Of a DNA stretch of 64,000 nucleotides, positions 56,501 to 59,500 are shown piece by piece (position 1 is the first letter of the stretch; each line of letters begins with the position of its first letter). The notes beneath the pieces were generated by a model. It saw only the letters and a program-made list of their open reading frames with translations, was not told where the DNA came from and did no database searches. The position numbers and the translations under genes are program-made. Location of the stretch: positions 31,654,283 through 31,718,282 of the forward strand of contig OU612066.1 of NCBI GenBank assembly GCA_914767715.1, given 5' to 3'. The stretch is from Membranipora membranacea (lineage: Eukaryota > Bryozoa > Gymnolaemata > Cheilostomatida > Membraniporidae).

Positions 56501-59500
56501 TGGCCGGCTCAATATATCTCGTCCATCGACCTGTCGGCACCAGGTCAAAGCTTGTGACAGTATCAAATGAATACAAAAGATTTACATATGGAATCATTAG
56601 AACAAATAAAAAGGTCGGGTGTTGTGGATACAGGATGGATTGCCTGGAGACAGACCAGAAGTCCCCCTAGGTAAAGCCATCATCACTCGGATCATGTCAG
56701 CAATCCAGGTATCAATACCCTGATCCATAGAAGCAATAGTACGTCAGAAGTTGGTCAACCAATATTTGCGTGCTGCCAGGGGTAGTGATGACTGTAAACT
56801 GAAATTGTTGGGAGTTGTTGAGGATTCTCAGAAGGCCACTAATTACTTGAGGGTCTGTTCGAGTTTCAGTTGACATTTTCTTTGTCAGTCAAGGATAAAA
56901 ATTCCGATAACTGATTATTGCTACGCCAGGCCTGCAGAAAAGTTTTGCTGCATAAAATCACAAGTTTCAGAGCTTTTTGGCTTTTCATCAAGCTAATCCA
57001 ACACAAAATTTAACATTTGGTCGGAGTGCCGACTTACTTTTTTCCTTTCTCACATTTGTATGATCCGGAGTATTTCCCTCCTGCTTGTACGAGCTCGTAT
57101 ATCTCTGGAATGGCGCTGGCAAAGATGGCCTGTAAAACAGATCACCAAACAAATATTTCAAGGAACGTTGTAAACGTCAGGATATGTCCTAGAAAGTAAC
57201 ACTTTAACAAGGTCACTTTCTAGGATAGAATTTGCAGCGGAAACAATTCTGTTCGCTGACACGATTGTTAAATAATCACCAGGGATAAATGAGAATGGAA
57301 CAGAGTGTATTCGTTGACGTACAGTGAACCCCCCCCCCACACAAAAGGATACCCCTAGTTCTTACTCGCACTGGTCATCATCATCAAAAACTCATGGATT
57401 ACCTGAGTGGTCAGCCAAAGTGAATTATCAAGTATTTACAATCCAATAATACAGTATGGAGATGAAGTAGCCTAATTGGTAAGTCTAGAGATTGTAAGGG
57501 GCAGAATTAATTGACTAATTTATGGTTTGCATAATTGTTTCTACAAGGATGGAATGTGTAATGATCTGCATGCTCAGACAGTCATGGAACTGAATGCAAG
57601 GCAAGGGTGTTACTGAAGCATCCCCACAAGCCTAAACCAAATAGAAGGAGATTGCAAACGACAGGAGAAATGAAGTCCCATCTGGTGACTGATAGAACAA
57701 AATGGAGGGGATGAATTGGTGAAAAGGTGATGATAATAAAACTGGTTGGGATAAGCTGAACCAAAACTGAAAAAACCTATTACAAACTAGAGTCAAAAAA
57801 TTGCCACAGGGGCCATGTTATACTTCTGACGACACCTCGAATCTTTATATCCAAATGCTTAGAGCAGCCGAAGCATGTTTCTCATTTTAACATGACCGAA
57901 TAAGCTAGAGCCATATAGGTTCCCTAGTCCTACATGGCTCTGCAAGGACCCGATACAACTTGCTGTTGGCAGGGACACTACTGGTTTAGTAAAGAAGTGT
58001 ACAAAACATGCAGGATTATAAAAAAGAATGTCTAACCAGAAACCATCACCTGATAAAATTATAGGAGGGATTCCCTGCTTTTGCAAAGTTTTCAAAACTG
58101 AACTGATCAAGCAAAACAAATGTGACTCACAACAAACTACACATGCAGTCCTCTAGCAATCTGTCAGGAGCGAATCTGTCTGGAACAACTTGTGTTTTAC
58201 TGCTCAAAACTCGAACTTAAGCTTTGTTATCACAACCACTGTCAATATTGCAAGCGCAAGCATAAAACAGGGGGCAAACAGGACATCTCGGCCAGGGATC
58301 CTTATCGGACACAAGCAGGTGAACACGGACTACTCACCAGCCCACCCGTTATAATGAACAACATAAAAGCCTGTCCAATTGTGGTTTTACAGAATATATC
58401 ACCATATCCAACAGTTGAAGAAGTGACCAGAATGAAATATGAACATTCCCAGTATCCCAGAGGTTGTATATTAGGCGGACACCTCCAAGGGTCACCAGAA
58501 TTTTCGCACTGAATAAAAGACAGTAGTAGAGACAGTGTTAGCAGGTGGCGTGACAATAGCGACAATGGTGGTGGCAGGTGGCGGTTATGAGCAGCCCAGG
58601 CGTTGTGAGTGTGTGCAGGTGCTCTCAGCTGTTATCCCCACTTACCAAGCCAGCTGAGATAATAAACACCATCAGCAGGCGACCAATAGTGGTTGTACAG
58701 TATATATCACCGTAGCCTACAGTGGTTCCAGTTACCAGTATAAAGTAATTACACTCCCAAAATGTGAGCTCTTGAATATTTGGAGGGCAGCGCCATGGAT
58801 CTCCTGAGTTCTCTACCTATAAAAGTCACACACCTCAATCTGCTAACTAATAAAAACCCTTGGCGTCTCCAATATAAAAATTCTGCACCCCTGTACAATG
58901 TACAAATTTACAGCTTACGTCAAGATATATGGTCCCGGAAGCTTTAATCAGCAGTACACATCTGTTGTAAGCTGACACACATTTCAACAGCTTGGTCGAT
59001 CTATCAAACTTATTTTGGTATAATAAATCATAATTTAAGATTGTACAACGGAGTTGTACTTTTAACCCATTAACGCAAGTATCATTATCACAATGAAATG
59101 ACAGGAACAGATGACCCGCCCACACCACAGATATAACCACAATGATCCCATCAACAGCTTGGCATGTTTATAAATGTTTCTATTTGCTGTCAAAAATTTT
59201 GATTGACATCAACGGCATTCCAATACTGATGGCTCCATTCAGAAAAGAAACACGCCATGTCAAAATCAGCAGTTTGTCAAAAAATTATCCTCACTCTGTG
59301 AAAATATTATGGTTGACATATGCGCGTGTGTTGCCTGAAATCAGGTCCAAGCTATCGCCCAATATATGAAACTGGATCATATTTCCAGTATTTTCTTTTT
59401 TAACAGCTAAACAATGACAATTGATACAAGCTTTGGCGAGACAGGATTTCCTAAGGATGCATTGAGAAAACTAGAAATTCTCAGGTTGCGTATCAAAAGA

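Follow-up and report, generated by a model that had tools for sequence, protein, structure and literature searches.

We have found a tandem duplicate of the pore exon in the Slo1 (BK) gene of the bryozoan Membranipora membranacea, and with a probability of about 0.83 each mature mRNA takes either exon A or exon B between the constant exon ending at position 60685 and the constant exon starting at position 57129. The gene lies on the minus strand of the window, by which we mean the whole stretch of 64,000 nucleotides that was analysed, and all features described below are on that strand. Exon A (58646..58816) and exon B (58338..58508) each encode a turret, a pore helix, the TVGYGDI filter and upper S6, with B providing the alternative version of this segment. 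They are separated by an intron of 137 bp (58509..58645), the shortest of the 19 introns modelled in the gene. The constant exon upstream (60685..60836) encodes S4-S5 and the one downstream (57038..57129) encodes lower S6 and the start of the C-linker; both junctions are in phase 0, and S5 as well as lower S6 sit outside A and B. The acceptors end in ttttatag (A) and ttattcag (B), and the donors are GTAAGT (A) and GTGAGT (B). A and B are thus adjacent homologous exons of 171 bp each with matching phase (0/0) and 42 of 57 residues in common, and they are mutually replaceable. A sequence-only reading had already described two intact GT-AG exons of this length, phase and spacing, each running from the turret to the start of S6, together with the joins to 60685 and 57129, and all of this was re-derived here.

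Apart from the duplication, the gene is an ordinary Slo1 gene. The model, which runs from S3 to near the C-terminus, has 20 exons with A and B counted separately, from 62943-62832 (S3) to 35077-34907 (C-terminal region), and its translation is free of stop codons. The first exon identified in the window (62832..62943) encodes S3 and the start of the S4 region and was aligned to Aplysia Slo1 from residue 157. The coding region that remains downstream of the pore and its constant neighbour (34907..57037) comprises 15 exons for RCK1, the linker, RCK2 and the C-terminal part, including the exon with the calcium bowl (37507..37637), which was placed by the gene model and the alignment with the structure sequences. 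Two linker exons, 43233-43147 and 40686-40577, have borders that are less secure than the other borders. No exon upstream of S3 was recognised when the open reading frame list for 63-64 kb of the window was inspected by eye, and the S0 and S1-S2 exons may lie beyond the window end. The last coding exon was not found within the window.

The identity of the gene is supported by several lines of evidence. Compared with the solved structures, the model scored best with Aplysia Slo1 (1243 bits), followed by the fly (1214 bits) and human (1122 bits) proteins, an order that weakly points to a lophotrochozoan. The stretch RFLRALR aligns with human R207-R213 and provides the BK-type S4 arginines, the K+ filter TVGYGD is present in both A and B, and the calcium bowl, an aspartate run in RCK2, lies in a stretch identical to that of Aplysia in the alignment. 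Pfam returned PF03493, PF22614 (in two stretches) and PF21014, each over its cut-off, which correspond to the BK-specific domain, two Slo-type RCK stretches and the Slowpoke C-terminal domain. Both A and B exceeded the Pfam cut-offs for two channel-pore families. As judged from the sequence, the gene is Slo1, and A and B both look functional.

The differences between the two exons are located in the turret, where the pore helix ends directly behind the filter, at the outer mouth and in upper S6. In human numbering taken from the alignment and given as A/B, they are 256 V/C, 271 E/P, 273 T/G, 274 F/Y, 278 N/S, 285 G/S, 286 T/S, 294 Y/F, 296 T/K, 301 R/Q, 302 L/A, 303 L/F, 305 V/L, 309 S/T and 310 A/G, so that B keeps the Gly-Gly pair of upper S6 whereas A has Ala-Gly. 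The differences pointed out earlier (GTT and SST, GDIYCT and GDIFCK, RLLMV and QAFML) are borne out by this comparison. Several of these positions are sites of known interest: the pair 285-286 lies behind the filter, the outer mouth contains 294 and 296, and 301-305 and 309-310 belong to upper S6. The letters of the TVGYGDI filter are the same in A and B. The earlier statement that splicing swaps the filter itself was therefore too strong; the swap alters the surroundings of the filter. Since the filter letters are identical, ion selectivity is expected to be unchanged, and the choice between A and B would rather tune conductance, block or pore gating. With E271 and T296 compared to P271 and K296 in B, A is the more negative of the two at these sites, and it may therefore have a higher conductance at low K+ and a tighter binding of cationic blockers; R301 of A, where B has Q301, acts in the opposite direction. 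The change Y294F by itself may have little effect on TEA block. A- and B-type BK subunits would share the voltage sensor, S5, lower S6, the gating ring and the calcium bowl, and would differ in the turret, the pore-helix end, the outer mouth and upper S6.

A and B have been under strong protein-level constraint since their divergence. Their bases are identical at 113 of 171 sites, third codon positions account for 35 of the 58 differences, and dN is 0.21 (Nei-Gojobori) with dS saturated. When 58 substitutions were placed at random, a mean of 34 residues changed (with a minimum of 24 starting from A and 26 starting from B), none of 5,000 runs gave 15 or fewer residue changes with either exon, and stop codons were absent from just 861 (A) and 686 (B) of the 5,000 runs. 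Similarity between A and B fades within 14 bases beyond the exon edges, and the flanking introns are unrelated. In a tblastn search with both models (E up to 1), none of the other modelled Slo1 exons was found a second time within the window. The saturated synonymous change, the confinement of the similarity to the exon and the lack of another doubled exon indicate that the pair represents neither two alleles nor a recent repeat. An assembly error that merged two slo genes or two alleles into one contig is accordingly a very improbable explanation, since it is the pore exon alone that is doubled, the introns flanking A and B are unrelated, and a base divergence of 34% is far above that of alleles.

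The two exons share more residues with each other than with the corresponding stretch of other BK channels: A and B are identical to human Slo1 at 36 and 35 positions, to Aplysia at 29 positions each and to the fly at 29 of 56 positions each. Accordingly, the duplication postdates the split from these three lineages, or the copies exchanged sequence later; the dating rests on three outside sequences and gives nothing finer than this post-split origin. Nine residues are common to A and B and absent from human, fly and Aplysia. Viral contigs (1 pattern stretch) and prokaryote contigs (18) contained no relative, as expected for an animal gene.

Could one of the copies be a relic, or nearly unused, so that the other alone is spliced into the mRNA? 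The comparison with other BK pores argues against this. Together with their constant flanks, A and B scored 109.3 and 110.5 bits with the human pore, 96.3 and 97.8 bits with the fly pore, and 87.6 and 86.3 bits with the Aplysia pore. At the 15 positions that differ between the exons, a residue of human, fly or Aplysia is matched by A only in five cases, by B only in four, by both in two (294 and 296) and by neither in four. Among the 29 positions common to human, fly and Aplysia, A alone departs at three, B alone at two and both at four. The divergence is thus symmetric, and with A and B about equally far from the three BK channels, neither looks like a decaying relic. Furthermore, neither exon has lost its reading frame, its splice sites or its filter letters despite the synonymous saturation.

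The splice signals provide the one observation in favour of such a relic. When a small matrix derived from the gene's 18 other exons was applied, the acceptors scored 12.5 (A) and 7.1 (B) and the donors 10.8 (A) and 8.8 (B), with medians of 9.6 for the acceptors and 7.0 for the donors of the other 18 exons. The signals are thus stronger in A than in B, yet those of B are inside the range of the constitutive Slo1 exons, and taken together we consider it quite improbable that one copy is a relic. With stronger signals, A could be the default exon and B the regulated form.

Two of the differences are not unique to the present gene, since 294F (as in B) and 296T (as in A) are each also present in Aplysia. 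The Aplysia Slo1 of the solved structures (PDB 5tj6) carries TVGFGDIF in its filter region, while human, fly, A and B have GYG. The possibility that the Aplysia pore exon is an outlier or a third pore type was rejected, because the identity between Aplysia and the present gene is 51% in this exon, close to the 53% and 55% of the neighbouring exons.

That the two exons are used mutually exclusively is the most likely reading, because S5 and S6 would be joined by two pore loops in a message with both and by none in a message with neither. The regulated either/or choice proposed from the sequence earlier is partly supported by the Slo1 identity of the gene and the functional appearance of both exons, and the use of both exons in an exclusive and regulated manner is the best reading of the data. 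The reading frame alone would allow more. A alone, both exons and neither exon gave stop-free translations in the full model, and B did so in the partial model. Double or null messages might thus be made in meaningful amounts, for instance for pore-less, dominant-negative subunits. A precedent of a kind exists in lobster Shaker, for which Kim et al. 1997 are said to have described a form without the pore exon, reportedly non-functional. A BK pore should not form if S5 and S6 are connected by two loops or by no loop at all, and the comparable snail NALCN exons were reported to be mutually exclusive (PMC3557258). Meaningful non-exclusive use is quite improbable in our view.

Since every combination of A and B is in frame, no wrong choice would be marked by a frame shift or exposed to nonsense-mediated decay, and control of the choice by mRNA decay was rejected. 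If decay is unable to remove wrong choices, exclusivity must come from splicing itself. Retention of the A-B intron would end the protein six codons past A, and mRNA decay could act on this product.

Two further mechanisms were examined. Incompatibility of U2- and U12-type sites was rejected, since A and B have splice sites of the common GT-AG type at all four ends. Pairing of intronic RNA in the manner of docking and selector sequences found no support: the best duplexes had -30.1 and -29.8 kcal/mol, compared to shuffle means of -29.1 and -30.1 kcal/mol (12 shuffles each).

An intron of 137 bp is long enough for splicing in most animals. Measured from its donor, the A-B intron has branch-point matches at 40, 58, 108 and 132 nt; the one among them that lies 29 nt from the B acceptor is a good match and would escape a steric block. 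The AG-free stretch before the B acceptor is 113 nt and the longest in the gene (13-89 nt in the other 18 introns), and a stretch of this length was reached in 21 of 2,000 single-base shuffles of the intron. Such a long AG-free stretch permits a branch point close to the A donor. Downstream of B there are two copies of TGCATG, an Rbfox-type motif, one 191 nt after B (58142..58147) and one 326 nt after B (58007..58012); two copies in the first 400 nt were reached in 8 of 300 shuffles. The counts of YGCY and YCAY in the A-B intron were reached in 2 and 6 of 300 shuffles, respectively. Since 8 classes of motif were scanned over 5 regions that overlap, which amounts to about 40 motif-by-region tests, UGCAUG, YGCY and YCAY are to be taken as leads only. 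The AG-free stretch and the two TGCATG elements could be regulatory features. The A-B intron is also rich in C and contains three copies of CACCTGC.

To our knowledge, pore-exon swapping has not been reported for the BK family. The pore is usually regarded as fixed, and BK diversity is attributed to accessory subunits and to alternative exons located elsewhere. The search of the open-licence literature, in the portions of text it returned, revealed no report of an alternative BK pore exon either; this says little about novelty, since older BK work is mostly outside its scope. Pore-exon swapping itself is known in other channels, and BK appears, on weak evidence, to be a family for which such a swap has no known report.

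A tetrameric precedent is again the lobster (Panulirus) Shaker channel, for which Kim et al. 1997 reportedly found alternative P-region exons with different effects on gating, on rectification and on block by drugs. It resembles the present gene in being a tetrameric K+ channel with alternative pore exons; the difference is that Shaker (Kv1) belongs to an independent gene family and not to Slo1. According to PMC9741552, ion channels are enriched in duplicated exons that are spliced in a mutually exclusive manner. In NALCN, exons 15a/15b and 31a/31b are arranged in tandem and are mutually exclusive in many invertebrate phyla, and the swapped exons span the P-loop and the filter, exon 15 also the start of S6 (PMC3557258). 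The exclusivity of these comparable exons in cDNAs supports an exclusive use of A and B. NALCN differs in being a four-domain channel in which the filter residue is E or K, and selectivity is thought to switch (same source); in the present BK gene both exons have the same TVGYGDI, and since the channel is a tetramer, one exon would set all four pore loops or mix them. Exons 12a/12b of Cav3 provide an alternative turret and descending pore helix with a change in permeation, but this is a calcium channel and its alternative exons stop before the filter site (PMC4436565).

Alternative exons are also known in slo genes themselves. Soom 2008 is said to have described a mutually exclusive slo1 exon in vertebrates. 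In nematode slo-1 the alternative exons are in RCK1 (PMC4270693, PMC6779273), and in the fly a mutually exclusive pair is on the cytosolic face of the channel (PMC6025963); these papers agree with the earlier remark on alternative exons in the cytoplasmic domain of BK channels. Exclusive exon choice that alters channel properties or drug response is common to the nematode and vertebrate genes, and the nematode exons differ from A and B in that they concern the cytoplasmic gating-ring region and not the pore. For the fly, two points can be added. Three tandem-exon events are reported for fly slo (PMC9741552), one affecting calcium sensitivity and one conductance. In addition, a fly Slo construct carries 13 substitutions, 11 of them within residues 328-356 (PMC8660915). 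These residues correspond to the stretch encoded here by exon 57129-57038, directly after the pore. The clustered substitutions look like a swapped alternative exon for lower S6 and the linker and not like separate mutations, and the exon just after the pore thus probably has an alternative form in the fly. Fly slowpoke is therefore similar to the present gene as a member of the same family with tandem duplicated exons; a duplicated pore exon is not stated in the available parts of PMC9741552, PMC6025963 and PMC8660915.

A wider interpretation, to which we give slightly less than an even chance, is that splicing picks one of two complete outer BK pores, that cells which make both could combine A and B pores in one tetramer in graded numbers, and that alternative BK pores might be widespread in lophotrochozoans. 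Mixed channels are possible because BK channels are tetramers. If this interpretation is true, mixed tetramers would allow a tuning of conductance, outer-pore block and pore gating that does not involve the voltage and calcium sensors, and one more channel family would have evolved pore-exon swapping. Two natural pores within a single gene would also be a ready-made test for the residues around an unchanged K+ filter that set the very large conductance of BK, its block and its pore gating. The filter sequence of Aplysia, GFG compared to GYG in human, fly, A and B, is a pointer for alternative BK pores.

Elsewhere in the window, the region 180-24000 on the same strand as slo contains many long open frames, which look similar to each other, rich in Asn and glycosylation-like. 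Pfam assigned no family to eight frames from this region, and the frames are possibly parts of a single large gene whose product is extracellular or membrane-bound. Tandem repeats are located at 24244-24402 (46-bp unit), 39773-39897 (42-bp unit) and 42203-42318 (38-bp unit), the latter two inside slo introns.
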